Assembly: GCF_020400825.1 (NCBI RefSeq)
Contig: NZ_JAINVH010000005.1
Location: forward strand, 124,001-188,000
DNA: 64,000 nt
DNA from: Streptomyces sp. HPF1205
GTDB taxonomy: Bacteria > Actinomycetota > Actinomycetes > Streptomycetales > Streptomycetaceae
Direction of reading: 5' to 3'
Each line of letters starts with the position of its first letter. Position 1 is the stretch's first letter. Both the position numbers and the translations under genes were made by a program. Under the pieces are notes generated by a model. That model was not told where the DNA came from. It was given only the letters and a program-made list of their open reading frames with translations, and ran no database searches. This document shows, in pieces, positions 8,918 through 31,517 of the stretch.

Positions 8918-9000
8918 ACCTCCTCACCCCCGTCCGGGGGTAGTGAGACCCAGGTCACTCCCGCACGATGCTACTCAGAGTCCGTCGAGGAGGAGGACAC

Positions 9001-13863: not shown

Positions 13864-15267
13864 GTGGAGTGGGTGGTGTGGACCAATGCGCTCACAGACA
13901 GTTCGCACGACGCCGACAATGCCGGGCTGACCTCGGCAGATGCCGATGAGCAGGCCCTTGGCGGCAGGCGCACCAGGTTCACCGTCCTGGGCATGCTGAC
14001 CCTGGCCGACGGGCGGGACTGCGTGGTGCTGCAGCCCTCCCGGCCGGCCGCGCTGCTTGCGGCATTGCTGCTCCGGGCGAATTCCGTGGTATCGGCCGAT
14101 TTCCTGCAGCGCGTCATCTGGGGCGACGGTACGCCGGCCCAGGCGAAATCCGCATTGCATAGCTGCGTCCTGCGTCTTCGGCGGTTGTTCGGTAAATACG
14201 GGGTGGCGGGCAATGCGATCGAGGCAGTGCCCGGCGGTTACCGGCTGACCGCGGACGCGCGGACGCTCGACCTGGTCGAGTTCCGGGAACTCCTGGACCG
14301 TGCCTATTCCGCGCCGGGCACCGAGCCGGAAAAGGAACTCGCCCTGCTGCGGGCCGCCCTCGCGCTCTGGCAGCCCCCGCTGCTGGCGAATGTGCCCTCC
14401 GAACTGCTGCACCGCGACGAGGTGCCGCGCCTGCACGAGGAATGGCGGCGGGCCATCCACCGCGTCTTCGACCTCGAACTCGCCCGCGGCCGCCACCGCG
14501 AGGCGCTCGCCGAGATCTGGCCCGCCGCCCGCGCCCACCCGCTCGACGAGCGGTTCACCGAGCAGCTCATGGAGGCCCTGCACCGCACCGGCCGCCGCGC
14601 GGAGGCCCTCGCGGAATACCGCAGGTTCAAGGCGCTGCTGGCCGAACAGCTCGGTGTCGACCCCGGCCCGGCCCTGCAGCGTCTGGAACTGGCCATCCTG
14701 CGGGGCGAGGCGGACCCCGGCCCGGGCGCGGACCCGCCGCGACCAGCCGCCCGGAGCTCTTCGCGCGGCTCCCCCGGCCGGACGCGGCCCCCGGCGCCCG
14801 GCGGCGGGGACCTCGCGCCGCCGCCCGCCGGCCCGGCGTCCGCGACCGCCGGCGCCGGGCCCGGATCCGTATCCGCCCAGGACCCCGGCGAATGCGGTCC
14901 AGGGCCCGGTCCCGGTTACGGCCCCGGGCCCGAGTCCGACCCCGGCCCGCGTCCCTGCCCCGAATCCCGTCAGGCCTACGCGGGCGGTACGGGCAGTACG
15001 GGCGGCGCAGGTGGTACGGGCGGTCCCGCCGACCCGGCCGCCGACGCGGCACTCCTGCCCGGCGAGGGCGTCCTCGACCGCCTGGTCGGCGCCGGCCTGC
15101 TCGAAGAGGGTCCCCGCGGCCACTACCGCATGCACGAACTGCTGCGGGTGTTCACCCGTGCCGCCGCGGCCGAGGGCGTCGGCGCCCGCACGGCGGCGCC
15201 CCCCGCCCGCACCCCTACCCCGACCCCCCGGCCCGGCGCCGTGGAACTGCACCCGACGGAGGCGTGA
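13864..15267 (+). CDS. SARP family pathway activator with an NB-ARC remnant
   Basis: The 467-residue regulator has the Streptomyces antibiotic regulatory protein layout: an OmpR-type winged helix at about residues 35-130 (FTVLGMLTL, SALHSCVLRLRRLFG, VPGGYRLTADA) and a bacterial transcriptional activation domain at about 137-285 (LDLVEFRELLDRA through EYRRFKALLAEQLGVDPGPAL). A Pro/Gly-rich stretch of about 100 residues follows. Near residue 400 a short block, LDRLVGAGLLEEGPRGHYRM, matches the winged-helix end of the NB-ARC module of AfsR-like regulators, although no nucleotide-binding motif remains. GTG 13864, 13873 and 13876 are alternative starts. It heads the RiPP operon and ends 2 nt before the next start, so it probably activates this cluster. 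Confidence 0.9.
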   Translation: MEWVVWTNALTDSSHDADNAGLTSADADEQALGGRRTRFTVLGMLTLADGRDCVVLQPSRPAALLAALLLRANSVVSADFLQRVIWGDGTPAQAKSALHSCVLRLRRLFGKYGVAGNAIEAVPGGYRLTADARTLDLVEFRELLDRAYSAPGTEPEKELALLRAALALWQPPLLANVPSELLHRDEVPRLHEEWRRAIHRVFDLELARGRHREALAEIWPAARAHPLDERFTEQLMEALHRTGRRAEALAEYRRFKALLAEQLGVDPGPALQRLELAILRGEADPGPGADPPRPAARSSSRGSPGRTRPPAPGGGDLAPPPAGPASATAGAGPGSVSAQDPGECGPGPGPGYGPGPESDPGPRPCPESRQAYAGGTGSTGGAGGTGGPADPAADAALLPGEGVLDRLVGAGLLEEGPRGHYRMHELLRVFTRAAAAEGVGARTAAPPARTPTPTPRPGAVELHPTEA

Positions 15268-15269
15268 GC

Positions 15270-17846
15270 GTGACTGATCTGGTGTCACCGGCCGAGCAGC
15301 AGGCCGACTCGGGGCCGGGGGCCGACCACGCCCCCGGCGACGCCGCGCGGCAGCAGGCGCGGGCCTACGAACGGATCGCCGGGACCCGCCCCCGTATCCG
15401 CCGCGACGTCCTCTACACGCAGACGCCCACCGGCGTGCACTTCCACAACGCGCGGGGCGGCTTCAGCGTGGTGATGCCCTCGGCGTACCGCTTCGCGCAG
15501 CTCATCGTGCCGCACCTGACCGGTGAGCACACCGTGGCCGACCTGTGCGCGGGGCTCGGCGACAAGCAGCGCGCGATGGTCACCCGTCTCGTCGGCACTC
15601 TCTACGCGCGTGGCTTCGCGCGCGACGCCGTGCCGCCCGCGCCCGGCGCGCCCGCCCCCGAGCCGGCCGTCGCCCGCCGCTTCGCCCCCCAGATCGACTA
15701 CGTCGACCACTACGCGGACGACGCCGCCGCCCGCTTCCTGCGCTTCCGCACCACCCGGGTGGCCGTCCTCGGGGAGGGCCCGCTCGCCCGCTGGGCGGCG
15801 CTGTCGCTGGTGCGCAACGGCTGCGCGACCGTCGCGGTACCGGCCGCCCTCGACGCCCCCGGCAACGGCTTCGCCGAACTCGCCGCCGAGGCGCGGGCGC
15901 TGAACGACGAGGACTGCCCGGTCGGCCTGCGCCTCCTCGACGCCCCCACCGCTCCCGGCGGATACGGCTGGGCCGAACTCGACGGCTACGACGTCGTCCT
16001 GGTCACCGGCGAGCACGCTGCCGCCCAGACCGCGGCACTCGCCCACGGCGTTCCCGAGGGCAGGATGCTCGTGCCCGCGTGGGGGTTCGGCGGCTCGGTC
16101 GTCGTCGGCCCGCTCATGCGGCACGGCTCGACCGGCTGCTGGACCTGCGCGGCACTGCGGCTGGGCGCCAACGCCGACCCGGCGCACGCCGCCGACCTGT
16201 GGAGTTCCCTGGCCACGGGCGGCCCGGGCGGCCCGGGCGGCACACGCGGGGGAGGCGGCACGGACACGTCCCGCGCCCCGCGCGGGCCGCTCGCCGCGAT
16301 GGTCGGCAACCTGCTCGGCTACGAGGTGTTCCGCCTCACCACCGGGGCGCTGACCCCCGAGACCGACGGCCGGCTCGTCGTCCAGGACCTCGACTCGCTC
16401 GACACGGTCGCCGAGCCGCTGCTCGCGCACCCCCGCTGTCCGCACTGCGGTGGCCGGGACGACGCCCCGGCCACCGCGGTGGTCCCGCTCGCCCGGCTCG
16501 GCTCGGGTACGGAAGGCTTCGGCTCCGGTACGGAAGGCTCCGGGTCCGGCGCCGACGGCCCTGGCTCCGGTACGGGCGCCCGCAAGTCCGCTGCAGAAGG
16601 CCCCCGGCCCGGTACCGACGCCCCCGGCTCCTCTCCGGCCGACCCCGAGGCGGCGTCCGCCGACCCCGAGGCCGCGTCGGCCGGACCCGCCGAGGAGGAC
16701 CTCGCCCGGGCCGCCCTCGCGGAGATCACCGACCGGTCCGTCCTCGTCCAGCCCGCCTCGGGGGTCTTCCGGCGGTTCGCCGACGAGACGTGGGCGCAGA
16801 CACCGCTCAAGGTGAGCACCGTCGAGCTCAGCACGGGCCACGGGGGCACCCGGCGGATCACCGCCTTCGACGTCCATCACGTGGCGGGGGCCCGGCTGCG
16901 CGCCCTCCACCGGGCCGCGGAGGTCTACGCCGAGCACGTGGTGCCGCTGCCCGTACCGCTCACCGCCGCCGACTCCGGGACGGCCGGGCGCAAGAAGGCC
17001 GGGGTGGAGGTGCTGAGCGTCGCCGGCGGCGTGAGCGACGCCCCCGTGACCGCCTGGCACCTCGCCACCTCGCTGCTGGACGGCGGGAGCGTCCTCGTAC
17101 CGGCGGCCGCCCTGCGCCCCTTCGGCCCGGCCAACCGCGACCGCCTGGTGGAGCCCACCGCCGCGGGAACCGGCGCGGGCGGCACGCCGGCCGAGGCCAC
17201 CGCGCGCGCGGTGCTGACCGCGCTCGCCCACGACACCCTGCGCCACGCCCTGCACGGGCGGGTACGGGTGGCGGCCGTCGACCCCGCGGGGCTGGAAGCC
17301 GCGGGCGACCCCGAACTCACCTTCCTCGTCCGCTGCGCCGCCAACCTCGGCGTCGCCCTGGAGATCCTCGACATCGGCGCCCCGGAGCAGCGGCCCGCCC
17401 CCGTCGTCCTGGCGCGCGCGGCCGATCCCGCCACGGGCGACTGGCACTGGTCGGCCGCCGCCGGGCACCGCTGGCGCGATGCCGCCCTCGAAGCCGTCCG
17501 CGACCTCCTCGGGGCCCACCAAGTCGCCCAGGACCCCCAGGCACCCGGCGGCTTCGATCCCGGCGACCCCTTCCTGAAGGACCTCGCCCCGGCCGCGCTG
17601 ACGCCCACCGCCGAGGTCCCGGTGACGGCGCTGCTGCCGGACGCGGGGGTGAAGCGGGCCCCGCTCCCCGCGACGGGTTCCGCGCGGCCCGCTCCCGCCG
17701 GATTCTGGCCCGGCCTCGCCGAGCGGCTGCGGGCCGCAGGACGGGACGTACTCGCCGCGCCCGTGGCCGCGCCCGACCTGGCCGCCGGGCGGCTGTACGT
17801 GACGCGGGTCCTGCTCACCGAGGGCGGCGCGGCCGATGTCCACTGA
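15270..17846 (+). CDS. Cyclodehydratase partner: F-protein (RRE plus ocin-ThiF-like)
   Basis: The 858-residue protein probably binds the precursor leader and delivers it to the YcaO enzymes. Residues of about 45-115 (VLYTQTPTGVHFHNARGG, then a VADLCAGLGD helix) look like a PqqD-type RiPP recognition element. From about 160, RVAVLGEGPLARWAALSLV is an E1/ThiF-like Rossmann segment. CWTC near 290 and CPHC near 390 suggest one structural zinc. A Gly/Ser/Glu-rich linker (about 410-475) precedes a region (about 485-565) that reads like the opening of a YcaO domain (SGVFRRFADE, RLRALHRAAEVYAEHV) but lacks its catalytic glutamates. GTG 15270 is chosen because GGAGG lies 7 nt upstream. It overlaps the next gene by 11 bp. 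Confidence 0.85.
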   Translation: MTDLVSPAEQQADSGPGADHAPGDAARQQARAYERIAGTRPRIRRDVLYTQTPTGVHFHNARGGFSVVMPSAYRFAQLIVPHLTGEHTVADLCAGLGDKQRAMVTRLVGTLYARGFARDAVPPAPGAPAPEPAVARRFAPQIDYVDHYADDAAARFLRFRTTRVAVLGEGPLARWAALSLVRNGCATVAVPAALDAPGNGFAELAAEARALNDEDCPVGLRLLDAPTAPGGYGWAELDGYDVVLVTGEHAAAQTAALAHGVPEGRMLVPAWGFGGSVVVGPLMRHGSTGCWTCAALRLGANADPAHAADLWSSLATGGPGGPGGTRGGGGTDTSRAPRGPLAAMVGNLLGYEVFRLTTGALTPETDGRLVVQDLDSLDTVAEPLLAHPRCPHCGGRDDAPATAVVPLARLGSGTEGFGSGTEGSGSGADGPGSGTGARKSAAEGPRPGTDAPGSSPADPEAASADPEAASAGPAEEDLARAALAEITDRSVLVQPASGVFRRFADETWAQTPLKVSTVELSTGHGGTRRITAFDVHHVAGARLRALHRAAEVYAEHVVPLPVPLTAADSGTAGRKKAGVEVLSVAGGVSDAPVTAWHLATSLLDGGSVLVPAAALRPFGPANRDRLVEPTAAGTGAGGTPAEATARAVLTALAHDTLRHALHGRVRVAAVDPAGLEAAGDPELTFLVRCAANLGVALEILDIGAPEQRPAPVVLARAADPATGDWHWSAAAGHRWRDAALEAVRDLLGAHQVAQDPQAPGGFDPGDPFLKDLAPAALTPTAEVPVTALLPDAGVKRAPLPATGSARPAPAGFWPGLAERLRAAGRDVLAAPVAAPDLAAGRLYVTRVLLTEGGAADVH

Positions 17847-19884
17847 GCTGCGCGACCGGCCCCCGGCCGCCGCCGCGGTCGCGGACCCGCCGGCGCCCGG
17901 ACTCGCCGCCGCCGTCGAGTCGGCCCTCGCCTCGGCCCTCGCCGGTCTCACCGCCCGGCCGCCGCGGGCCGCGGGCGGACCCGGGACCGTACCCCCGGGC
18001 ACGGATCCGGTGGTCGGGTCGCCGGGCACGGACCTGGTGGTCGGGTCGCCCGGCACGGACTTGGTGGTCGCGTCGCTCGGCCTGCGGGACGAGCTGGCGG
18101 CCGGACCCGACGCGCGGCCCGCCGGGGTCCACGTCTACGGCCACCACGTCCTCGTCGGCCCCTTCGGGTCCGGCGGGCGGCCCGCCTGCGCCCGCTGCCT
18201 GGTGCGGCGCTGGCAGGCGGTGCGCACCCGGGCCCTGCGCGAGGCGCTCGAACGCGGCGCGGCGACGGCCCCGGCGGGCGTCCCGCCCTGGGCGGTCCCT
18301 TTCGTCACCGACGCGCTGGCCGCCGTCATCGCCGCTCAGCGCGCCGCCGAGCGCGCGCCGGCCGAGGAGGGGCCCGCCACCGGCAGCCGCTTCCCGTACG
18401 CCTTTCTCGTCGACGCGGAGACCCTGGCCGTCACCAGGTTCGCCGTCGTGCCCGACGCGGAATGCCCGGCGTGCGGCGACCTGCCGGCCGACAGCGCGAC
18501 GAACGCCCGAGTGCTCCTGGAGAGTTCACCCAAGCGCGAGCCCGGTGGCTTCCGGTCGCGGCCCGCCGACGACTACGACGTGCCTCTGGAGGCCTTCGTC
18601 AACCCGGCGGCCGGGATGCTGGGGCCGTCCGTGGTGCCGGACCTGGTGTCGGGCTCCACGTCGTCCGCGGTGGGCTCGTTCTTCCTGCGCTCGGGCGACT
18701 ACCTGCGGGAGTGCTTCTGGGGTGGCCACACCCCGCGCTACCGGTCGAGCGTGCGGGTCGGGCTGCTGGAGGGGCTGGAGCGGTTCGCCGGGATGCGGCC
18801 GCGGGGGCGGCGCACCACGGTCACGGCGGCGTACGACGACATCCGGGACCAGGCGCTCGACCCGCGCGAATGCGGGCTGTACCCGCGGGAGTTCCACCTG
18901 GCCGAGCCCGGCGTACGCCCCTTCGACCCCGCCCGCCCGATCCCGTGGGTCCGGGGCTGGTCCCTGCGCGACGAGCGGCCCCTGCTCGTACCGGAGATCA
19001 TCGCCTACTACCATGCCCCCGGCGGCCTGGCGAACCGCTTCGTCCAGGAGAGCTCCAACGGCTGCGCCTCCGGCGGCACCCTCGCCGAAGCCGTCTACTT
19101 CGGCCTGATGGAGGTCATCGAGCGCGACGCCTTCCTGCTCGCCTGGTACGGGCGGGCGCCCCTGGTCGAGATCGACGCGACGGCGAGCCGGCGCCCCGGC
19201 ACGCGCGCGATGATCGACCGGCTGGCGATGTACGGCTACCGGGCCCGCTTCTTCGACACGCGCGTCACCTTCCCCGTCCCCGTGGTCACCGCCGTCGCCG
19301 AGCGCGAGGACGGCGGCCTCGGCCGCCTCTGCTTCGGCGCGGGCGCGAGCCTCGACCCGGAGGCCGCCCTGGAAGCCGGGCTGTGCGAGATCGCCACCGA
19401 CGCGGTCAACCTGCGCCGCAGGACGGTACGGGACCTGCCCCGGCTGCGCGCGATGGCCGCGGACTTCTCCCGGGTGAGCGTCCTGCACGACCACCCGCTG
19501 CTGTACGGGCTGCCCGAGATGGCCGGGTACGCCGACTTCCTGCTGCGCCAGGACCGGCCGCCGCTGCTGACCCCGGCCGCCCTGGCGCGCGACACGGTCC
19601 GGCCCGGTGGCGACACGCGCGACGACGTCGTGGCCTGCGTGCGGGCGGTCACCCGGGCCGGCTTCGACGTGATCGTCGTCGACCAGACCACGCCCGAGCA
19701 GCGGCGGCTCGGGTTCCACACCGCCGGGGTGATCGTGCCCGGCCTGCTGCCCATCGACTTCGGCTGGTCCCGGCAGCGGGCCCCGCACATGCCCCGCACC
19801 CGCCGCGCCCTGGCCGAGGCGGGGCTGCGGCCCGGCGAACTGGGCCCGGCCGACCTCAACCCGGCCCCGCACCCGTTCCCGTAG
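17836..19884 (+). CDS. YcaO azoline-forming cyclodehydratase, copy 1
   Basis: The 682-residue ATP-dependent enzyme is expected to convert Cys (and perhaps Ser/Thr) of the core into azolines. Nucleotide and Mg-binding signatures are intact: LLEGLERFAG near 311, NGCASGGTLAEAVYFGLMEV near 408 and IERDAF near 428. It ends in APHPFP, the Pro-rich tail typical of azoline-forming YcaO proteins. An N-terminal domain has CARC near 118 and CPAC near 211, probably a zinc site. A 27-bp unit (GTDxVVxSP) is repeated three times at 17998-18078 near the N-terminus. It overlaps the F-protein gene. It is paralogous to the second YcaO of the cluster. Confidence 0.9.
   Translation: MSTELRDRPPAAAAVADPPAPGLAAAVESALASALAGLTARPPRAAGGPGTVPPGTDPVVGSPGTDLVVGSPGTDLVVASLGLRDELAAGPDARPAGVHVYGHHVLVGPFGSGGRPACARCLVRRWQAVRTRALREALERGAATAPAGVPPWAVPFVTDALAAVIAAQRAAERAPAEEGPATGSRFPYAFLVDAETLAVTRFAVVPDAECPACGDLPADSATNARVLLESSPKREPGGFRSRPADDYDVPLEAFVNPAAGMLGPSVVPDLVSGSTSSAVGSFFLRSGDYLRECFWGGHTPRYRSSVRVGLLEGLERFAGMRPRGRRTTVTAAYDDIRDQALDPRECGLYPREFHLAEPGVRPFDPARPIPWVRGWSLRDERPLLVPEIIAYYHAPGGLANRFVQESSNGCASGGTLAEAVYFGLMEVIERDAFLLAWYGRAPLVEIDATASRRPGTRAMIDRLAMYGYRARFFDTRVTFPVPVVTAVAEREDGGLGRLCFGAGASLDPEAALEAGLCEIATDAVNLRRRTVRDLPRLRAMAADFSRVSVLHDHPLLYGLPEMAGYADFLLRQDRPPLLTPAALARDTVRPGGDTRDDVVACVRAVTRAGFDVIVVDQTTPEQRRLGFHTAGVIVPGLLPIDFGWSRQRAPHMPRTRRALAEAGLRPGELGPADLNPAPHPFP
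17998..18078 (+). repeat. Three tandem 27-bp in-frame units in YcaO copy 1
   Basis: Units at 17998-18024, 18025-18051 and 18052-18078 differ at only a few positions and each encodes nine residues (GTDPVVGSP, GTDLVVGSP, GTDLVVASL). They lie in the poorly conserved N-terminal extension and do not disturb the catalytic domain. Confidence 0.85.
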
Positions 19885-20062
19885 CTCCCGCGCACGACCG
19901 GCACGACCGGCACGACCACGCCCCGCGGCCGGCCGGCAACCACCCGCCCCGCCCGGGCCACCCGCGCACCCGGCCCGACACGACCCAGCCCGACCCAACA
20001 CGACACGACCCGACACGACGAACCGAGCACCGCGGCAGACACGAGCGGAAGAAAGGACCACC
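19885..20062. other. 178-bp gap with CGACACGACC-like simple repeats
   Basis: This is the largest gap inside the biosynthetic operon. It opens with three CGGCACGA(C) units and later contains several ACACGACCC-type units (about 19978-20020). No hairpin terminator or clear promoter was seen. It could hold an internal promoter or only be slippage-prone filler. Confidence 0.55.
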
Positions 20063-21664
20063 GTGGGATTCGCCCATGACTACGCGACCGCCATCGTCCG
20101 GCGGGGCCGGTATCCCATGGAGCCCGCCGACTGGGTGCCCGACTGGGCCGACCGGCCGCGCAAGGGCAAGCACTTCCCGGCGGCCGACGCCTTCCCGCTG
20201 CCTGCCGACCCGGCGCCCGACCCGGCGGCCACCGTGCAGCGCGGGCTGCACGGACCGGAGGGGACGGGATCCTTCACGCTGCCGCTGCTGGCCGCGATGC
20301 TGCGCGACTCGTACGGGCTGGTCGGCCGCAGGCTCGCGGTGCAGGCCAACTCCGACCTCGGCACGCTCCCGATGTACACCCAGGCCAACTGGTCGCGCGG
20401 CACCGCCTCCGGCGGCGGTCTGTACCCGGTCGGCGTCCACTGGGTCACCGGCCCCGGCGGCCCGCTCACCCCGGGCGTCCACTACTACGACACCCGCCAC
20501 CACGAACTGCGCCGCCTGCTCGTCGGCGACGTCACCCCCGAGGTCCGCGCGGCCGTCGGCGAACCCGCCCGCGGCCACCGGCAGTTCCTCGTCCTCGGCG
20601 TCCGCTTCTGGCAGAACGCTTTCAAGTACAACAGCTTCGCCTACCACGTCGTGACCATGGACACCGGAGCCCTGCTGCAGACCTGGCGCCTGTGGGCCCG
20701 CGCGCACGGCCTGCCGCTGGGCCCCGTGCTGTGGTTCGACGAGCCGCGCCTGGGCCGGCTGCTCGGCCTCACGCCCGAGGAGGAGGGCGTGTTCGCCGTG
20801 GTGCCGCTGCGGTGGGAGGCGGACCGGCCGGAGGAGCCCGGGACCGGGGAAGCGCCCGCGGCGGGCCGCGAGGCGGTCCGGGTGCGGCACCGCGACCAGG
20901 AGCGGTCCTCTCGGGTCGTGGCCTTCGGGACGGTGACGGCGATGCACGCGGCCACGCTGGAAGGAGCCGCCGAGCGGCCCGCGCCCCAGGCACTGGCGAA
21001 GGTCCTGGCCGAGCCCGCGGACCCCGGGGGCGAGCGGACGCCGCTGCCCCCGGCGGAACCGCTGCACGCCGCCGTACGGGACGCGCTGCGGGCGCGGCGC
21101 AGCAGCTTCGGCCGGTTCCAGGCGGCACTGCCGCTGCCGGCGGCGGGGCTGTCCACCGTCCTCGCCGCCGCCGACGCCGCCGGCTCGCTCGGCAGCGACA
21201 CCGAGACGCCCGGCGCCGCGCCGCTGACCCGGCTGTACGTGTTCGTCAACCATGTCGCCGCCGTGGACCAGGGCGTGTACCTCTACGACCGCGCCGACCG
21301 CTCGCTGCGGCTGCTGCGCGCGGGCGCGCCGGGAGCGTTCCTGCAGCGCAACTACTTCCTGGCGAACTACAACCTGGAGCAGGCCGCCGCGGTGATCGTG
21401 CCCGCCGCCCGTACCCACGCCGTGCTCGACGCGGTCGGAGACCGCGGCTACCGCCTGGTGAACGCCGTCGTCGGCGGCATCTCGCAGGCCGTCTACACCG
21501 CCTGCGCCGCGGCCGGCCTGGCCTGCGGTGTCGCGCTCGGCTTCGACGCCGTCTCGTACACCGAGGAGCTGGGGCTGGCCGAGACGGGCGAGATCCCGCT
21601 GCTGACCATGATGATCGGCCACGAAGGGCCGCGCCCGGCCGACTTCCGCCACGAGATCGTGTGA
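20063..21664 (+). CDS. SagB-type azoline dehydrogenase with two nitroreductase-like halves
   Basis: The 533-residue protein should oxidise azolines to aromatic azoles with FMN. The first half has RGTASGGGLYPVGVHWV near 113-128, the SagB signature, followed by YHVVTMDTGALLQTWRLWA. The second half repeats the pattern (RARRSSFGRF near 350, YLYDRADRSLRLL, VNAVVGGISQAVYTACAAAG). Tandem nitroreductase halves are a known layout for this family and could form an internal pseudo-dimer. GTG 20063 follows AGAAAGGA. It is separated from the first YcaO by 178 bp and followed after 10 bp by the dehydratase gene. Confidence 0.88.
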   Translation: MGFAHDYATAIVRRGRYPMEPADWVPDWADRPRKGKHFPAADAFPLPADPAPDPAATVQRGLHGPEGTGSFTLPLLAAMLRDSYGLVGRRLAVQANSDLGTLPMYTQANWSRGTASGGGLYPVGVHWVTGPGGPLTPGVHYYDTRHHELRRLLVGDVTPEVRAAVGEPARGHRQFLVLGVRFWQNAFKYNSFAYHVVTMDTGALLQTWRLWARAHGLPLGPVLWFDEPRLGRLLGLTPEEEGVFAVVPLRWEADRPEEPGTGEAPAAGREAVRVRHRDQERSSRVVAFGTVTAMHAATLEGAAERPAPQALAKVLAEPADPGGERTPLPPAEPLHAAVRDALRARRSSFGRFQAALPLPAAGLSTVLAAADAAGSLGSDTETPGAAPLTRLYVFVNHVAAVDQGVYLYDRADRSLRLLRAGAPGAFLQRNYFLANYNLEQAAAVIVPAARTHAVLDAVGDRGYRLVNAVVGGISQAVYTACAAAGLACGVALGFDAVSYTEELGLAETGEIPLLTMMIGHEGPRPADFRHEIV

Positions 21665-21674
21665 GGGGGCCGCG

Positions 21675-24600: not shown

Positions 24601-24815
24601 AGAGCGAACTGCACGTCCACTCCGCCCGCGGCCGGCACGTCGCCGAACTGGCCGTCGAGATCGTGCCCGCGCCCGCACCCGCGCCCGAGGCCGCCCCCGC
24701 ACCCGCGCCCCAGGCCGCGCCGGCGGCCGGCCACGCCGCCCCCGGTTCCGAGCGCGCCCCCGGCCCGCACGGCGCCCCCGGCCCCGTACCCGGAAGGCAG
24801 GACACACCCGCATGA
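21675..24815 (+). CDS. Split lanthipeptide-type dehydratase, glutamylation protein
   Basis: The 1046-residue protein matches the N-terminal, tRNA-Glu-dependent glutamylation part of class I LanB enzymes, which activates core Ser/Thr for dehydration. The order LHRRFMLRVGGLP, KTSPFSTFTAVSAGRF (about 221-236), LTLKGFFLARYG, LVVLNNSYGGLSFPFTRF and VHSARGRHVAELAVEI follows the Lant_dehydr_N family of thiopeptide and goadsporin clusters. The elimination domain is absent here and supplied by the next gene, whose ATG overlaps this stop. Residues of about 246-305 are a 36-bp tandem-repeat expansion between conserved blocks. The C-terminal 50 residues are low-complexity Pro/Ala. ATG 21675 has GAGGGGG upstream. 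Confidence 0.9.
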   Translation: MAELSTRPAATARTPGVSGTATARPPAGDLHRRFMLRVGGLPVEAVHRLRAPEAREWADRVLAARERVEALGAELSDPLAVLVKATADDRERRAVLALRREVFNGRLPRDPGAVREVAARAGGATGDLLTGWLDARLRLAGLLDEGGPLMDRALARTRGELRRLAREERLRLGLVLASPTLDARIDAFAAGGADGAGPVRVPDKRTRRKERSLLAYLYRTACKTSPFSTFTAVSAGRFVTVPAARDAPASLGEPAACDAPASLGEPAACDAPASLGEPAARDAPASLGEPAARDAPAARDAPASLDAAAGPPPGSPAGTTVRLGGRWAGHPRLNVVVLARIAELVAADPARRADLPVALSAGWDLDEDRVRYVRRSVTAGDDSAAVSFDAAHDRLFFLRRSGTLEGMLSRFKDGGPMRYGELEAWLAERTGASAEEAARYPATLLDLGILQMTGLDTDVHTPDPLRAFQASLRALERPWADAAADRMEDAARRVAAYARADAAGRRTLLAGLRQDLLALQRELGASAPSLPQTLLYEDVTEDGVTAALEPWTRLAAEPLRALTGILPAFDVALPQRLTLKGFFLARYGRGGRCDDLLRLVHDFHEDIFTQYLTFTSGKPRWAADGSHAPEENWLGMPEVTALDRARAEFTRRMRELWARHPEGGAELRIDEDTVAAVTAELAPVRAHFAPHSHFVQLAAREDDPLVVLNNSYGGLSFPFTRFTHCFDPALGRGDGDDLTGDLRAALRSWQPPGAVFAEITAGSATTNLNLHGRLTDYEIVCPGETSTAPAPARIDLDDLYAEHDPGADRLVLRSRRLEREVIPLYLGYLVPMVLPEVPRTLLLFSPTSRAKPQMWRGVPEGPATDGVTVRPRVRYRSLVVHRRRWTAAPGATPVREPGMDDAAFYLAWQQWRRRHGLPDRVFATVHGGDGDGGETEFAGAKPSYVDFDSPLSLLALDALTAAGPARTVFEEMLPAESELHVHSARGRHVAELAVEIVPAPAPAPEAAPAPAPQAAPAAGHAAPGSERAPGPHGAPGPVPGRQDTPA
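22410..22590 (+). repeat. 36-bp tandem repeat inside the dehydratase gene
   Basis: Full units start at 22410, 22446, 22482 and 22518, an 18-bp half unit at 22554 and a partial unit at 22572. Each full unit encodes DAPASLGEPAAC or the same with final R. The near identity of copies indicates recent expansion by slippage or unequal exchange. All units keep the frame. Confidence 0.92.
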
Positions 24816-25894
24816 CCGACCCGACCTCCCGCCCGGACGCCAGGCCCGGGCCGGGCACGCCGGACGAGCCCGGCCACTGGCAGGCGTACCACGTCTTCTA
24901 CGCCGCCAGCACCCGCCCGTTCCTGCTCGAATGCGTCCGCCCGCTGGTCGCGGAGCTCAGCCGGGACGGCCTCCTCAGCGGCTGGTTCTTCATCAACTAC
25001 TGGCTGGAGGGCCCGCACATCCGCCTCCGGCTGCGCCCGGCCGCACCCGCGGCCGCCGCACAGGTGCGCGAGCGGGCCACGGCCGCCGTCGAGGCGTTCC
25101 TGCGCCGCAGACCCGCCCTGTACGAGGTCAAGGGCGGCTTCCTGGCAGACCTGTACAACACGCTGTTCGAGCTGGAGTACCCCGGCGGCGAGCGGGAACC
25201 GTACGTGGACGAGAACGGCCACATGCGGCTGCGCCCCAACAACTCCTTCAGCCAGGAGCCGTACGAGCCGGAGTACGGCAAGTACGGCGGGCCCGCCGGG
25301 GTCGAGCTGGCCGAATGGCATTTCCAGCGGTCCAGCGAACTGGTCATGGACGCGGCGGCGACGATGAACCTGCACCTGCGCACGGTGCTGCTCGGCGTCG
25401 CCGCCCAGCTGATGATGACCATGGCCGGCTGCCTGGTGCCCGAACAAGAGGCGCTGCTGCGCTTCCTCGACCGGTACCACGAGTACTGGAACGCGGCCTT
25501 CGCGGGCACCAACTTCACCGCCCGCGACGGCTACGACCGGGCGTACCGCAGCATGGACGCGGCCCTGACCCGCCGCTTCTCCGACATCCGTGAGGCGGTC
25601 GCCGCCCCCGCGCCGGACCGCCTGCCCGGCTTCCTGCGCGGCTGGGCCGAGCACTGCCTCGACCTGCGCGACCGGGTGAGCGAGGCGGCCCGGCGCGGCG
25701 ACCTGGTCTTCCGTTCGTGGGACGGGACGCGTGACCTGACCGTCCGCGAGCCGGGCGAGGCGCTGCCCATGCTGCTGTCGCCCTATATGCACATGACCAA
25801 CAACCGCCTGTCGGTGAGCGTCCGCGACGAGGCCTACCTGTCCTACGTCCTCGCCCGCGCGCTGCGCGAGCCGCAGCCCTCGGCGGCGCCATGA
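24812..25894 (+). CDS. Standalone SpaB_C-type protein: probable glutamate elimination lyase
   Basis: The 360-residue protein belongs to the thiopeptide-type biosynthesis family (TIGR03891/SpaB_C), which includes both glutamate-elimination enzymes and pyridine-forming cycloaddition enzymes. It keeps features of the eliminating kind: GPHIRLRLR near 66-74, corresponding to the catalytic Arg pair of LanB lyases, YEPEYGKYGG near 145-155 and HMTNNRL near 326-332 with the conserved His. It would remove glutamate from the glutamylated Ser/Thr to leave Dha/Dhb. It is coupled on both sides by ATGA overlaps, so it is made together with the glutamylation protein. Elimination is more likely than cycloaddition, but this is inference from motifs. 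Confidence 0.82.
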   Translation: MTDPTSRPDARPGPGTPDEPGHWQAYHVFYAASTRPFLLECVRPLVAELSRDGLLSGWFFINYWLEGPHIRLRLRPAAPAAAAQVRERATAAVEAFLRRRPALYEVKGGFLADLYNTLFELEYPGGEREPYVDENGHMRLRPNNSFSQEPYEPEYGKYGGPAGVELAEWHFQRSSELVMDAAATMNLHLRTVLLGVAAQLMMTMAGCLVPEQEALLRFLDRYHEYWNAAFAGTNFTARDGYDRAYRSMDAALTRRFSDIREAVAAPAPDRLPGFLRGWAEHCLDLRDRVSEAARRGDLVFRSWDGTRDLTVREPGEALPMLLSPYMHMTNNRLSVSVRDEAYLSYVLARALREPQPSAAP

Positions 25895-28353
25895 GCACCC
25901 CTGGCGGCGCCATGAGCACCCCCGGCGCGTTCCTCGCCCTGCGCCCCAGAGTGCGGCCCGACCTCGTGGTCACCCCGCGCCTGATGCGAGGTCCCACCCC
26001 CGTCCACCTCATCAGGCACCCCGCCACCGGCGCCCGCATGGAAGTCGGCGCCAAGGAGCACTTCCTGATCACCCGGCTGGACGGGACCCGCTCCCTGGCC
26101 GACCTCGGCACCCAGTACGCGGCCGCCTTCGGCTCCCGTCTGGGCGAAGCCCAATGGCAGCAATTGCTGCGGCTGCTGTCGGTACGGGGGCTGCTGGCGG
26201 GCGGACCCGAACCCGCCGCCATGGAGCCGGCCGGCGATCGGCGACCCGGTGCCAAAGGCGGCGGATGGCTGTCCGGGCGCACCCGCATGGTGGCGGACGC
26301 CCCCGCCCTCATGGACCGGCTGCACGCGGCCACCGCGTTCGCCCGCCACAAGGCGGTGGCCGCCGCCCTTGCGGCGCTGTGCGCGGCGCTGCTGGCGGCG
26401 GAGGGTGTGCGGTTCGGGGAACTTGCCGACGACACCCGGAGGTTGTGGCACGAGCCCGTCACGCTGTGCGCCGCGGGCGTCGTGCTGTGGGTCAGTCTCG
26501 GGCTGCACGAACTGGCCCATGGCCTGGTGGCGCGGACGTACGGGTTGCGGGTCGGCGAGATCGGCCTGCGGCGGTGGGCCGGCGTCATGACGTATCTCTA
26601 CTGCGAGGTGGAGGACGTGCCGTTCCTTGGGCGGCGACGGCGGCAGGTCGCGATCGCGCTGGCGGGCGCGGCGGCGAACCTGGTCTTCCTGCTGCCGTTC
26701 TGGGGCGTGCGGGCGCTGCTGCCGGACTCCGCCCAGGCCGCCCCCTTCTTCGGCGGCCTGATCCTGCCGGGCACGGCCATGGCCCTGTTCAACCTGGTGC
26801 CGCTGCCCCCGCTCGACGGCTACAAGGCGCTCGGCTACGCCCTGGGTACCCTCCGCCTGGCGTCGGAGAGCCGCACGTACACCAAGGTCGTGCTTGCCGC
26901 CGCCGTCCTGCGCCGCCCAGGCGCCGGACGGCGGGCCGCCGCGTACCCCGTCCGCGTCCGCTGGGTGTACGGCGGCTACGCCGTCCTGTGCGCCCTGCTG
27001 GCCGCCGCTGCCCTCGCCGGGGCGGGCCTCGCCGCACGGGCGGCCCTCCCCGGCGGCTGGCGGGCGTTCAGCGCGTTCCTCCCCGTGGCACTTGTGGCGG
27101 TCGCTGCCGTCCTGCGCCTGCTGGGCCTGCGTTTCGCCGCCAAGCGGCCGCAGCCGCCGCCCCGGCCGGTCGCGGACGGCCCGGCCCGCGACGGCGCCCC
27201 GCCCCCGGAGGACGGCCCGGCCCGCACTCCCGAACCCCCCTCGGAGGAGACCCGCTCCATGACCACACCCCACCGGCCGTCGCGGCCGGCCGTCGTGCTC
27301 GACGGCGTGAGCAAGAGATACGGCGAGGTGCGCGCCCTGGAAGGGGTGTCGTTCAGCGTCGGCGAGGGGGAGTTCTTCGGGATCCTCGGGCCGAACGGGG
27401 CCGGGAAGACGACGCTGGTCGAGATCGTGGAGGGCATGCGGCGGGCGGACGCGGGCACGGTCGCCGTGCTGGGCCGGTCGCCCTGGCCGCGCGACCTCGC
27501 GCTGCTGCGCCGTGTCGGCGTCCAGACCCAGGCGTCGGCCTTCTTCACCCGGCTCACCGCGGGGGAGCACCTGGAGACCGTCGCCGCCCTGCACGGCCTG
27601 GGCCGGGCCGCGGCCGGGCGGGCCCTGGAGGAGGTCGGCCTCGGCGACAAGGCGTCCAGCAGGGTGGACGATCTGTCCGGCGGACAGCGGCAGCGGCTCG
27701 CGCTGGCCACCGCCCTGGTGCACGAACCCGAGCTGATCTTCCTGGACGAACCCACGGCCGCCCTCGACCCGGAGGCGCGCCGCTCGCTGTGGGCCGTCCT
27801 CAAAAGGCTGCGCACCCAGGGCCGGACGATCGTCTGCACCACGCACTACCTGGACGAGGCCGAGGCGCTCTGCGACCGGGTGGCGATCATCGCCGGCGGC
27901 AGGCTGGCCGCACTGGACACCCCGGCGGCGCTGGTACGGTCCCTGGCCGCGCCCGCCCGGCTGCTCCTCCCGGCCGGCCGCATGACACCCGAGCAGGCGC
28001 GGGCCGTAGAGGACGTGGACCGGGTGCTGACCGAAGACGGCGACATGGTCATCGAGACCAGGGCCGCCAACCGGGTGCTGGTCGCGCTCGCCGCCTATGT
28101 CGACGTGGCCGAGATCAGGACCCGAACCGCCACCTTGGAGGACGCCTACCTGCGGCTGATCGCACGCGCGGAGGCGGGAACGGACGAGGGAACGGAGCCG
28201 GGAACGGAGCCGGAGGCCGCCGCCAAAGCGCCGGGAGCCGGACCCGCCGCCTCCGCCGCCGCCCCAACCGGACCCGCCGCCGCGGAAGCCACGGGACCCG
28301 CGGCCGGGATGACCTCCGCCACCGCGACCGGGACGGAGCACAGCAGCCGATGA
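25891..28353 (+). CDS. Fusion: winged-helix/RRE-like, M50 site-2 protease and ABC ATPase
   Basis: One uninterrupted 820-residue frame joins three modules. Residues of about 15-105 (VHLIRHPATGARMEVGAKEH, then a LADLGTQYAAAFG helix) look like the PqqD-type N-terminus of peptide zinc metalloproteases. Residues of about 140-430 hold about six membrane spans with HELAH near 206 and NLVPLPPLDGYK near 298-309, the two active-site motifs of M50 proteases. Residues of about 458-760 form an ABC ATPase (Walker A GPNGAGKTT near 499, LSGGQRQRLA near 595, IFLDEP near 615). The ATPase could also be made alone from ATG 27259, which has GGAGGAG about nine bases upstream. The start is duplicated (ATG 25891 and 25912). 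Likely roles are leader removal and export with the next gene. Confidence 0.85.
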   Translation: MSTPGGAMSTPGAFLALRPRVRPDLVVTPRLMRGPTPVHLIRHPATGARMEVGAKEHFLITRLDGTRSLADLGTQYAAAFGSRLGEAQWQQLLRLLSVRGLLAGGPEPAAMEPAGDRRPGAKGGGWLSGRTRMVADAPALMDRLHAATAFARHKAVAAALAALCAALLAAEGVRFGELADDTRRLWHEPVTLCAAGVVLWVSLGLHELAHGLVARTYGLRVGEIGLRRWAGVMTYLYCEVEDVPFLGRRRRQVAIALAGAAANLVFLLPFWGVRALLPDSAQAAPFFGGLILPGTAMALFNLVPLPPLDGYKALGYALGTLRLASESRTYTKVVLAAAVLRRPGAGRRAAAYPVRVRWVYGGYAVLCALLAAAALAGAGLAARAALPGGWRAFSAFLPVALVAVAAVLRLLGLRFAAKRPQPPPRPVADGPARDGAPPPEDGPARTPEPPSEETRSMTTPHRPSRPAVVLDGVSKRYGEVRALEGVSFSVGEGEFFGILGPNGAGKTTLVEIVEGMRRADAGTVAVLGRSPWPRDLALLRRVGVQTQASAFFTRLTAGEHLETVAALHGLGRAAAGRALEEVGLGDKASSRVDDLSGGQRQRLALATALVHEPELIFLDEPTAALDPEARRSLWAVLKRLRTQGRTIVCTTHYLDEAEALCDRVAIIAGGRLAALDTPAALVRSLAAPARLLLPAGRMTPEQARAVEDVDRVLTEDGDMVIETRAANRVLVALAAYVDVAEIRTRTATLEDAYLRLIARAEAGTDEGTEPGTEPEAAAKAPGAGPAASAAAPTGPAAAEATGPAAGMTSATATGTEHSSR

Positions 28354-29105
28354 CCACCGCCTACGGAGCGCTCACCAGGGCCGCGTACCTGGCCTCGGTG
28401 CGCGACCGGACGACCGTCTTCTTCACCTTCGCCTTCCCACTGGTCTTCCTGCTGGTGTTCGGCCTGCTCTTCCGCGGCCAGTCCGTCGACGGCGGCCTGC
28501 CCTACATCAACTACGTGGCGCCCGGCGTACTGTCGTGGGGCGTCGGCAACGCGGCGCTGTTCGGGCCGGCGTTCGCCATGATGCACTGGCGGCGCGACGA
28601 CATCCTGCGGCTGGTGTGGCGCACCCCGACGCCGCTGCCCACCGTCCTGGCCTCGCGGTTCGCCGTCGCCGTGGGGGTGGGGCTGGCCCAGGCGGTGCTG
28701 TTCACGGCGGTCGCGCTGCTGCCGGTGTTCGGGCTGCACCTGCCGGGGACGTGGCCGCTGGCACTGCCGCTGCTCGTCCTGGGCGTCGCGGCCTTCCTCG
28801 CGATGGGGCTGGTCGTGGGCAGCCTCGCCGACACCCCGGAGGCGGTCGCGGCGATCGCCAACTGCGTCATGGTGCCGATGGCGTTCCTGTCCGGCTCCTT
28901 CTACCCGTCCGACCTGCTGCCCGGCTGGATCCGCACCCTGTCGTGGGTGCTGCCGCTGCGCTACCTCGACCACGGCCTCACCGACGTCCTGGCCGGGCGC
29001 CACGACCTCGGCCGGCTCGGCCTGGACTGCCTGGGCCTGGCCGCCTTCACCGCGCTCTTCGGGCTCCTCGCGACCCGGACCTTCCGCTGGAGCAACCGGA
29101 CATGA
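28350..29105 (+). CDS. ABC-2 type transporter permease
   Basis: The 251-residue protein has six membrane segments and the ABC-2 pattern: DRTTVFFTFAFPLVFLLVFG at the first helix, YVAPGVLSWGVGNAALFG at the second, and MVPMAFLSGSFYP plus LPLRYLDHGLTDV towards the end. It starts in an ATGA overlap with the ATPase fusion and would pair with that ATPase to export the mature peptide and give self-protection. No other immunity gene is recognisable in the cluster. Confidence 0.9.
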   Translation: MTTAYGALTRAAYLASVRDRTTVFFTFAFPLVFLLVFGLLFRGQSVDGGLPYINYVAPGVLSWGVGNAALFGPAFAMMHWRRDDILRLVWRTPTPLPTVLASRFAVAVGVGLAQAVLFTAVALLPVFGLHLPGTWPLALPLLVLGVAAFLAMGLVVGSLADTPEAVAAIANCVMVPMAFLSGSFYPSDLLPGWIRTLSWVLPLRYLDHGLTDVLAGRHDLGRLGLDCLGLAAFTALFGLLATRTFRWSNRT

Positions 29106-31069
29106 CGACTCCCGCCCTCACGCAGACGCCGCACCCGCGCCAGGAACGGCCGGCGGCCGGGCCGCTGGACGCCGCCGGGCGCGACCTGGAGGCCCGGCTC
29201 GCCGCCCGGACGGCGGGCAGCGGACTGCCCGCGCCCGCGGTCGCCGTGCTCGGCGGACGCGACCTCCTGCGGCCCGAGGAGGAACCCCTCGCCGCCCGCC
29301 GGGCCGCGGCGGCCGTCCACCTCACCCCTGACGCGGTGCTGATCGGCCCCTGGGGCGGACGGGACCGCGAGGCGGACACGGCCTGCGGCTGCTGCCTGGC
29401 CGTCCGCTGGCAGCGGCTGCGCACCCGCACCGAACGCGAGGCACTGGAGACCGGGCTCGCCGTCACCGCGGCCGGCGCCTGGCCGCTGCTGCCCGACTGG
29501 ACGGTGGACGCGGTCGGGGGGCTCTACGCATGGGCGTTCGGCGGCGGGCCGCGGACTCCCGAGCGCGGCGGCGATCCGGCGGGACCGGCCCTCGTCACCC
29601 GCTACGACCTGGAGACCGGCCACGTCCGCACGGTGCCGCTGCTCGCCGAGCCGCTGTGCGACCGCCACCCCCGCGACCCCGGCGGGACGCCCCCGCCGCG
29701 GCTCGTGCCGCGGCCCAAGCCCGCCGCCGACCGCCACCGGCTGCGCGCCCCGGCCGGATACGCCCTGCCCACCGACGCGCTGGCGAACCCGGTGTGCGGC
29801 GTGCTCGGCGCCGGTACCTGGAACGACGTGACCTCGCCGACCACCGCCCCCGTCGCGGGCAGCGTCTTCATGCGCGGCTACGCCGGGCTCACCGACGTCA
29901 CCTGGAGCGGCCAGGCCAACTCCTTCGCCGCCAGTCGCGACCTGGCCTTCCTGGAGGGGCTGGAACGCTACGCCGGCACCCACAGGCGCGACCGCGAGCC
30001 GCTGATCGTGGAGTCGTACGACACCCTCGGCGACGCGGCGCTCGACCCGCGGACCTGCGGGATGTACGCGGAGGAGACCTACCGCCGGGACCCGGTGCTC
30101 GCGCCCTTCGACCCGTCGCGCCCGATCCCCTGGGTGCGCGGCCACTCGCTGCGCGACGACCGCCCGGTGCTGGTGCCGGCCCGGCTGGCGTACTACAGCG
30201 CCGGCACCCACGCCGACAACTTCGTCTTCGAGTGCTCCAACGGCTGCGCGATCGGGAGCTGCCTGGAGGAGGCGGTGCTGTTCGGCCTGCTCGAACTGGT
30301 CGAGCGCGACGCCTTCCTGCTCGGCTGGTACGGCGACGCGCGGCTCACCGAGATCGACCTGGCCTCCTGCGGCAGCCCGGTGGCGCGCGCGATGACCGAC
30401 CGGGCCGCCCTGTGCGGCTACGACGTCCACGTCTACGACAACCGGATCGACCTGCCCGTCCCGGTCGTCACCGGGCTCGCGGTGCGCCGCGACGGCGGCC
30501 CGGGCACGCTGGCCTTCGCCGCCGGAGCCGCCTTCGACCCGGAGACGGCCGTGGAGTCCGCGGTCTCGGAGATCCTCACCTACCTGCCGCACCTGCCCCG
30601 GCAGGTCGCCGAGCGGCCGGCCGAACTGGCCGCGATGGCCGAGGACTTCACGCTGGTGCGGCGGCTGCCCGACCACGCGGCGCTGTTCGGGCTGCCCCGC
30701 ATGAAGGCCCATGTGCGCGGCTACCTGGAGCCGGCCGCCGTCCGTCCCCTCGCCGAGGTGTACGCGAGCTGGCAGCGGCAGCGGCCGCGCGGCCTGGACC
30801 TGCGGGAGGACGTGCTGTGGCTGCGGGACGTCCTGACCGGGGCCGGTTTCGACGTGATCGTGGTGGACCAGACGACGCCCGAGCAGCGGCGGCTGGGGCT
30901 GCGTACGGTGTGCACCCTCGTCCCCGGGCTGCTGCCGATCGACTTCGGGTGGACCCGGCAGCGGGCGCTGACCATGCCGCGGCTGCGCACGGCCTTCCGG
31001 CGGGCCGGACTGCGGCCCGACGACCTGCGGGAGGAGGAGGTCCGGCGGGTGCCGCACCCCTTCCCGTGA
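29102..31069 (+). CDS. YcaO azoline-forming cyclodehydratase, copy 2
   Basis: This 655-residue paralogue of the first YcaO shares long near-identical blocks, for example FDPSRPIPWVRGHSLRDDRP, GFDVIVVDQTTPEQRRLG and PGLLPIDFGWTRQRA. Catalytic signatures are intact: FLEGLERYAG near 284, NGCAIG near 380 and ERDAFLLGWYG near 401. It ends VPHPFP. The N-terminal Cys pair CGCC near 94 is kept, but the second pair of copy 1 is replaced by CDRH. Two apparently active YcaO enzymes in one cluster may divide work between Cys and Ser/Thr or between core positions. It overlaps the permease stop (ATGA). Confidence 0.9.
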   Translation: MTTPALTQTPHPRQERPAAGPLDAAGRDLEARLAARTAGSGLPAPAVAVLGGRDLLRPEEEPLAARRAAAAVHLTPDAVLIGPWGGRDREADTACGCCLAVRWQRLRTRTEREALETGLAVTAAGAWPLLPDWTVDAVGGLYAWAFGGGPRTPERGGDPAGPALVTRYDLETGHVRTVPLLAEPLCDRHPRDPGGTPPPRLVPRPKPAADRHRLRAPAGYALPTDALANPVCGVLGAGTWNDVTSPTTAPVAGSVFMRGYAGLTDVTWSGQANSFAASRDLAFLEGLERYAGTHRRDREPLIVESYDTLGDAALDPRTCGMYAEETYRRDPVLAPFDPSRPIPWVRGHSLRDDRPVLVPARLAYYSAGTHADNFVFECSNGCAIGSCLEEAVLFGLLELVERDAFLLGWYGDARLTEIDLASCGSPVARAMTDRAALCGYDVHVYDNRIDLPVPVVTGLAVRRDGGPGTLAFAAGAAFDPETAVESAVSEILTYLPHLPRQVAERPAELAAMAEDFTLVRRLPDHAALFGLPRMKAHVRGYLEPAAVRPLAEVYASWQRQRPRGLDLREDVLWLRDVLTGAGFDVIVVDQTTPEQRRLGLRTVCTLVPGLLPIDFGWTRQRALTMPRLRTAFRRAGLRPDDLREEEVRRVPHPFP

Positions 31070-31101
31070 GGGCGCGGATCCCCGCGACGGCCGCGGGCTT
31101 G

Positions 31102-31131
31102 CGTGCGGGCCGCGGGGTCGCGGCCCGCACG
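31102..31131. terminator. Bidirectional hairpin between YcaO copy 2 and the precursor gene
   Basis: CGTGCGGGCCGCG at 31102-31114 pairs perfectly with CGCGGCCCGCACG at 31119-31131 around a GGGT loop: 13 base pairs. It lies between two convergent genes and should end both transcripts. Confidence 0.82.
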
Positions 31132-31176
31132 GCCCGGCTCCTCGCCGGCCGTGCGGACCACGGCACGCGCCGCGAA

Positions 31177-31362
31177 TCAGGCGGTGCAGCTCGTGGTGCT
31201 GGTGGTGCTGGAGCAGGTGCTGGTGGACGAGCAGCTGGTCGAGGAGCCGAGCATGACCTCGCTGGCGTCGGAGTAGTCGGTGATCTCGAAGGTCTCCGAC
31301 TCCAGCTCCAGGATCTCCTGGGCGAGCGAGGCGAGCGGCGCGTCCATCTTGATGTCAGCCAT
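31177..31362 (-). CDS. RiPP precursor peptide with Ser/Thr/Cys-only core
   Basis: The 61-residue peptide has an acidic leader of about 39 residues (ILELESETFEITDYSDASEV near 17-36, then MLG) like those of thiazolylpeptide-type precursors (TIGR03892-like). The presumed core after Gly39 has 22 residues: 10 Ser, 8 Thr, 3 Cys (44, 50, 59) and a final Ala. Every core residue but the last can be cyclised or dehydrated. AAAGGAG lies 8 nt before ATG 31362. It faces the biosynthetic operon and is separated from it by a strong terminator. Its own promoter has SARP-like repeats, so precursor and enzymes can be made at different levels. The exact cleavage point is inferred. Confidence 0.9.
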   Translation of the reverse strand: MADIKMDAPLASLAQEILELESETFEITDYSDASEVMLGSSTSCSSTSTCSSTTSTTSCTA

Positions 31363-31416
31363 GGTGACACTCCTTTGCGACGGCGGGAGCGGTCCCGGCC
31401 CGGGGCCGCCGGACTC

Positions 31417-31473
31417 TTTCTACGCGCGTCCGCTGTCACTTCCGCCTGCCGATCGCTGGCATGTCGCTGTCAC
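31417..31473 (-). promoter_or_regulatory. Precursor promoter with SARP-like repeats
   Basis: Reading the minus strand, GTGACAGCG (31473-31465), ATGCCAGCG (31462-31454) and GTGACAGCG (31439-31431) occur at steps of 11 and 23 bp. The last copy ends exactly 8 nt before TAGAAA (31422-31417), a possible -10. SARP activators are known to bind direct repeats with about 11-bp period, the promoter-proximal one 8 bp from the -10 and replacing a normal -35. No good -35 hexamer is visible. Confidence 0.65.
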
Positions 31474-31517
31474 GCGGCCGGAACCTTCGGCCACAACCGT
31501 TCGGGACGGAGCGCTCC

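Follow-up and report, generated by a model that had tools for sequence, protein, structure and literature searches.

A two-YcaO peptide cluster of Streptomyces sp. HPF1205 with a thiopeptide-type precursor, an elimination-type LanB protein and a predicted linear product

The DNA analysed here, referred to as the window, is a stretch of 64,000 nucleotides from Streptomyces sp. HPF1205 (positions 124,001 to 188,000 of contig NZ_JAINVH010000005.1, assembly GCF_020400825.1), whose draft genome (G000; 8.4 Mb, high GC content, 187 contigs) is 99.3% complete. It carries a gene cluster for a ribosomally synthesized and post-translationally modified peptide (RiPP) that spans 13864-32966 and in which all genes lie on the plus strand, except for that of the precursor peptide (Table 1).

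Table 1. Genes of the cluster, with positions in the window and the matches on which each assignment rests.
Feature	Positions	Strand	Evidence
SARP-type regulator (Streptomyces antibiotic regulatory protein)	13864..15267	+	BTAD 124.7 bits, Trans_reg_C 31.3 bits; start uncertain
F-protein (ocin-ThiF-like, predicted leader binding) with degenerate YcaO-like C-terminal domain	15270..17846	+	TIGR03882 56.2 bits (over cut-off), TIGR03693 partial, PF02624 48.5 bits
YcaO A, cyclodehydratase with F/C-type N-terminal domain	17836..19884	+	TIGR03604 306 bits (cut-off 219), TIGR03882 108 bits
SagB, two-half flavin mononucleotide (FMN) dehydrogenase	20063..21664	+	TIGR03605 121 bits in two stretches, PF00881
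LanB-N, predicted glutamylation protein	21675..24815	+	PF04738 123 bits
LanB-C, elimination-type SpaB_C protein	24812..25894	+	PF14028 157 bits; NF045556 107 bits (cut-off 325); motif; tree
RRE-M50 peptidase-ABC ATPase fusion (RRE, RiPP recognition element; ABC, ATP-binding cassette)	25891..28353	+	M50 and ABC domains
ABC-2 permease	28350..29105	+	PF01061 88 bits
YcaO B, second cyclodehydratase	29102..31069	+	TIGR03604 337 bits (cut-off 219); relatives LynD, TruD, MusD
Precursor peptide of 61 aa, with the core predicted to follow LG near residue 40	31177..31362	-	NF033400 and TIGR03892 over cut-off
M20 amidohydrolase/peptidase, divergent from precursor	31461..32966	+	PF01546 97 bits, TIGR01891 252 bits; start uncertain

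A preliminary description of the sequence had proposed a RiPP cluster combining two YcaO enzymes, a tandem SagB and a split LanB, and profile searches recover all of these, with both YcaO proteins intact, as well as the regulator, F-protein, glutamylation protein, elimination protein and precursor that it had named. Three of its assignments need amendment. The F-protein is indeed of the ocin-ThiF type, but also carries a degenerate YcaO-like domain that had been overlooked; the protease-transporter corresponds to the M50-ABC protein at 25891-28353, but the ABC permease is encoded by a gene of its own (28350-29105); and, while the start of the cluster at 13864 holds, its proposed end at 31473 is too short, since the M20 hydrolase, conserved in 129 of 142 related loci, belongs to it and sets its limit. 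The N-terminus of the peptidase-exporter has a PqqD-like fold and is thus predicted to be a leader-binding RRE domain. No GodH-like N-acetyltransferase domain was found among the cluster proteins in a Pfam scan.

The protein on which the nature of the product hinges is LanB-C, which contains IRLRLR and HMTNNRL segments and whose closest named relative, from Actinacidiphila acididurans, is 85% identical. Against NF045556, the curated pyridine-synthase model, it stays far below a cut-off that four true synthases clear with 400-434 bits, and falls within the range of elimination partners (57-130 bits; 36-37 bits for the berninamycin type). The HxxxNR motif is present in 24 of 25 such partners, and MibB carries a comparable HMTCNRL segment, whereas only one of 18 synthases matches the motif, at a different position. 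In a 61-row tree, in which partner and synthase labels were mostly assigned from the profile score (those of L101, L102, L115 and L117 were labelled directly), LanB-C and its relatives form one clade (support 100/99) and the 18 pyridine synthases another (100/99) that leaves LanB-C outside. The comparison with elimination and cycloaddition enzymes that had been suggested for the 24812-25894 protein thus bears out its elimination-type residues, and by score, motif and tree placement LanB-C is an elimination-type SpaB_C protein. Weighing against this assignment, both a profile search of the PDB and a fold search rank synthases first; a role of LanB-C as a pyridine synthase was nevertheless rejected on the cut-off, the partner scores, the motif and the tree.

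Two relatives of LanB-C with about 52% identity, at L093:7361-8422 (-) and L094:11474-12529 (+), occur without other cluster enzymes being seen in the retrieved DNA and have the His of HMTNNRL replaced by Arg (YLRMTNNRL); they may represent a re-used, elimination-dead paralogue. A fused LanB considered for L097 (open frame of 1421 aa) was discarded, as Pfam recognizes only the C-terminal domain there; no precursor was found in L097.

That the cluster contains a single SpaB_C-type protein, as had been noticed, extends to the whole draft genome, where PF14028, NF045556 and TIGR03891 identify no SpaB_C protein other than LanB-C. Since NF045556 missed the berninamycin-type synthase among the L106 frames tested, a profile was built from 18 synthases, leaving out the berninamycin type; it independently detected the controls L100 (68 bits) and L106 (48 bits), but in the 68 family loci, among them the window, it picked up one protein per locus, which in the window is LanB-C. 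An alignment of eight pyridine synthases that included the berninamycin type was in turn searched against nine whole genomes, and recovered LanB-C alone in G000, G115, G103, G033, G235 and G174. In G092, G216 and G264 it did find synthases, which belonged to the alignment itself, the independent match being G264:C5 (110 bits). The distant pyridine-synthase gene that the preliminary description had suggested looking for was therefore detected neither by the three curated models nor by the eight-synthase alignment. An unrelated ring-closing enzyme lies beyond the reach of such homology searches, none of which can exclude it. Elsewhere, in L117, L118, L119 and L120, the likely pyridine synthase is encoded some 5-6 kb away from the elimination protein and next to M50-ABC-like matches; NF045556, applied to L117 alone of these four, gives its synthase 432 bits.

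Because YcaO, SagB and split-LanB proteins are encoded and searches of the genome turned up no pyridine synthase, the product of the cluster is probably linear and goadsporin-like, with many azoles and dehydroamino acids, and would derive from a thiopeptide-type precursor. A thiopeptide pathway, in which LanB-C would catalyse elimination as well as [4+2] cycloaddition, or a divergent enzyme encoded elsewhere would carry out the cycloaddition, with a pyridine macrocycle as the result in either case, finds some footing in the fold and PDB rankings mentioned above, in a precursor that fits thiopeptide-type models, in an F-protein of the kind found in thiopeptide clusters, and in the precedent of LazC, described as only weakly similar to known synthases (PMC7210931), from which it follows that divergent synthases exist. 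It is set against the score, motif and tree placement of LanB-C, searches that detected no second such protein in G000, in the five relatives or in the 68 loci, and the finding that no additional gene is common across genera, which together make it highly improbable. A thiopeptide-type leader joined to goadsporin-type chemistry, with a linear product, accordingly remains the best-supported reading of the sequence, as had originally been proposed.

The precursor gene, whose ATG is preceded by AAAGGAG seven bases upstream, encodes a peptide that passes the cut-offs of two curated thiazolylpeptide precursor models, NF033400 and TIGR03892 (scores versus cut-offs of 45.1 versus 30 and 42.5 versus 25 bits). 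Its core, STSCSSTSTCSSTTSTTSC(T/S)A, is almost without variation across the family: in all 59 loci counted (the window, L032-L088 and L116; L091, a cut piece with no precursor seen, L089, L090 and L092, which have other cores, and more distant loci were left aside), it consists of 20 Ser, Thr or Cys residues followed by a final Ala and contains no Ile. The 51 DNA versions of these loci encode just seven core peptides, with exchanges at positions 1, 4, 10, 14 and 20 that are always among Ser, Thr and Cys. In a second set of 80 named loci, 20 of which are the same DNA as unnamed loci, 74 precursors were read in 72 loci; 73 conform to the same rule (64 DNA versions, nine peptides; exchanges at positions 1, 2, 4 and 20), the single exception being Ser12 to Ala. 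No precursor was found in the other eight, six of which are pieces of 14.1 kb or less; L169 and L202 are of full length and yielded none on a second look either, and both are without the M20 gene. Such exchange among Ser, Thr and Cys only fits what heterocyclised sites would be expected to allow. The unmodified core SSTSCSSTSTCSSTTSTTSCTA has a computed mass of 2076.78 Da, which every azole would lower by 20.03 and every dehydroalanine or dehydrobutyrine by 18.01.

By analogy with goadsporin, thiomuracin and lactazole, from which the order of events is drawn, we infer the chemical steps, the leader cleavage site and the linearity of the product as follows. The SARP would switch the cluster on and the F-protein would bind the leader (ETFEITDYSDASEV), upon which YcaO A and YcaO B would form azolines on the Ser/Thr/Cys core, to be oxidised by SagB. 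LanB-N would then glutamylate the leftover Ser and Thr residues using Glu-tRNA, and LanB-C would eliminate glutamate to generate dehydroalanine (Dha) and dehydrobutyrine (Dhb). Leader removal and export would fall to the RRE-M50-ABC protein and the permease, and the M20 hydrolase would trim or deacylate the product; without a cycloaddition enzyme, a pyridine macrocycle would not form.

Both YcaO proteins have a TIGR03882 domain at the N-terminus and retain the ExxE, SNG, ExxERDAF and terminal PHPFP segments, which we take to be catalytic and all of which are lost from the YcaO-like part of the F-protein; the corresponding ExxE, SNG and ExxERD segments are present in LynD and MusD. One clade (100/98), apart from the sampled thiopeptide YcaOs and from the berninamycin/L214 type, holds YcaO A and YcaO B together with the single enzyme of one-YcaO relatives; by this phylogeny, A and B go back to an old duplication within the family. 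As the single YcaO groups with A (group 97/94; join 87/85), the two enzymes of the window may tentatively be thought to divide their labour, one acting mainly on Cys and the other on Ser/Thr, an idea compatible with the proposed pathway. The Thr share of Ser/Thr/Cys residues is in keeping with it, at 8-18% in 13 one-YcaO cores from six loci versus 17-38% in 16 two-YcaO rows, a comparison that omits the fourth L234 precursor and the L092 precursors. However, these values are just a hint, because the ranges overlap (17-18% in L090) and the contrast amounts to about one evolutionary change; moreover, even among one-YcaO cores, equivalent positions have Thr in some and Cys in others, so that one YcaO may serve both.

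Among the 297 genomes from the bacterial family, 118 have a match to LanB-C at E <= 1e-8 and 73 at E <= 1e-60; seven of the latter (G127, G135, G193, G217, G222, G287 and G288) are not included in the loci. The genome collection yielded 172 stretches with genes for relatives, and the 80 kept as named loci come from Actinacidiphila, Kitasatospora, Streptomyces, Streptantibioticus, one metagenome-assembled genome and Micromonospora chokoriensis. Across the 142 related loci, LanB-N, LanB-C and the M50-ABC protein are always present, followed by SagB (139), the permease (137), the F-protein (132) and the SARP (95), many of the absences reflecting cut loci. Two separate YcaO places occur in 128 of them, one in 12 and none in two, copies having been recounted by place since the A and B queries cross-match; 13 of the 14 loci short of two YcaOs are pieces of less than 15 kb and the remaining one is L169. 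When neighbourhoods were compared in seven genomes of three genera, the cluster block was common across genera, flanks were shared only within a genus, save for paralogue matches of 29-39%, and no gene beyond the block was common across genera, a pattern that speaks against a chance grouping; the gene caller used there missed the SARP, which other searches find. In the sister clusters L089, L090 and L092, which have two YcaOs, M50 and ABC matches are separate and cores are shorter. More distant relatives from other families, L095, L096 and L229-L232, carry a single YcaO and between one and three precursors that are rich in Cys, with cores such as SSSSCSCSSCSSCSTSSCCSCSTSTSSCG; another group, L233-L236, has two YcaOs and mostly Thr-rich cores.

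The rarity implied for this gene combination does not hold, as the cluster is widespread and LanB-like proteins with YcaO but no cycloaddition enzyme have been described for goadsporin and the coryneazolisins (PMC4603692); the present cluster adds a variant to such known systems. With goadsporin (god cluster of Streptomyces sp. TP-A0584), it shares a YcaO cyclodehydratase, an FMN dehydrogenase, a split LanB (GodF/GodG), a peptidase-ABC protein (GodB) to which the M50 and ABC domains of the 25891-28353 protein are likened by domain content, the lack of a detected cycloaddition enzyme and the predicted linear azole/Dha peptide. Goadsporin, made by a homologous enzyme set, is described as having one cyclodehydratase and a final N-acetylation (PMC5303826), whereas the window encodes two YcaOs, an ocin-ThiF F-protein, a SARP, an M20 hydrolase and a thiazolylpeptide-type precursor with a Ser/Thr/Cys-only core, and no GodH-like acetyltransferase was found in it. 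The coryneazolisins of Corynebacterium, as described in PMC4603692, likewise have two D proteins, LanB-like dehydratases, one conserved precursor and no [4+2] enzyme, and are predicted to be non-macrocyclic; they differ in combining one discrete with one C-fused D protein and in an Ile between two Ser/Thr/Cys runs of the core, whereas here both YcaOs carry the N-terminal TIGR03882 domain and the core lacks Ile. Thiopeptides of the thiomuracin, lactazole and berninamycin types have the same type of leader (the EISDY segment recurs in L098 and L099), F-protein, YcaO, SagB and split LanB, but the cluster differs from theirs in having no detected pyridine synthase, a peptidase-exporter fused to an RRE, and a separate YcaO clade. 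The dehydrazoles, exemplified by carnazolamide, also combine azoles and dehydroamino acids on one linear peptide, but dehydration is there attributed to a DUF4135-type enzyme (PMC10676384), in place of the tRNA-dependent split LanB predicted here. The cluster stands out for a near-frozen core made up of Ser, Thr and Cys, for its duplicated YcaO genes, for an exporter that starts with an RRE-like domain and for the constancy of the M20 gene.

The spongiicolazolicins of Streptomyces sp. CWH03 (PMC8838263) are also linear azole peptides, and the question arises whether spongiicolazolicins A and B already represent the product of this cluster type. CWH03 has such a cluster (L182, core STSCSSTSTCSSTTSTTSCSA), whose precursor could likewise yield tails of 29 and 28 residues. 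However, the same strain (Streptomyces pacificus CWH03) harbours apart from it a second, goadsporin-like locus (L214:9506-19543) with matches to YcaO, SagB, M50, LanB-N and LanB-C. Its two precursors have 29 and 28 residues after the same SA/GN site, the lengths reported for A and B in PMC8838263, and its single YcaO (32% identical to YcaO A) and cores with other residues throughout set it apart from the window; the blocks of Dha/Dhb, azoles and unmodified residues described in PMC11583998 suit L214 better. An origin of the spongiicolazolicins from the window's type of cluster is thus unlikely, and L214 is probably their locus.

No paper on this cluster or its core string was found in the open-licence literature searched. 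Genome papers on S. albidoflavus list a 'thiopeptide, LAP' (linear azole-containing peptide) region that matches the unrelated fluostatins by only 4% (PMC11678301, PMC10745817), and because L174 from this species holds part of the cluster type, that region would be the same cluster; such regions then resolve into one family with a near-invariant core. This core predicts one compound for many species, so that a single heterologous expression would be widely informative. How YcaO and LanB enzymes share Ser/Thr sites is called unknown in PMC10676384, and the natural one-YcaO and two-YcaO relatives offer material for this question. A more speculative and rather doubtful view is that of an old peptide shared by actinomycetes, with nearly all residues converted to azoles or dehydroamino acids, that has been kept unchanged across more than 100 loci for a common purpose, such as a signal or developmental factor, and not as a diversifying antibiotic, with the duplicated YcaOs splitting the Cys and Ser/Thr sites of its core.

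Two further features of the window deserve mention. ARAGORN places a tRNA-Gly at 19888-19968 (minus strand), in the gap that separates YcaO A from SagB; this call is probably spurious and was rejected, as 22 related loci gave two ARAGORN matches, neither of them at this place. Outside the cluster, at 8968-12488 on the plus strand, lie two adjoining genes that by eye resemble AMP/CoA ligases and are common at high identity only within the genus.
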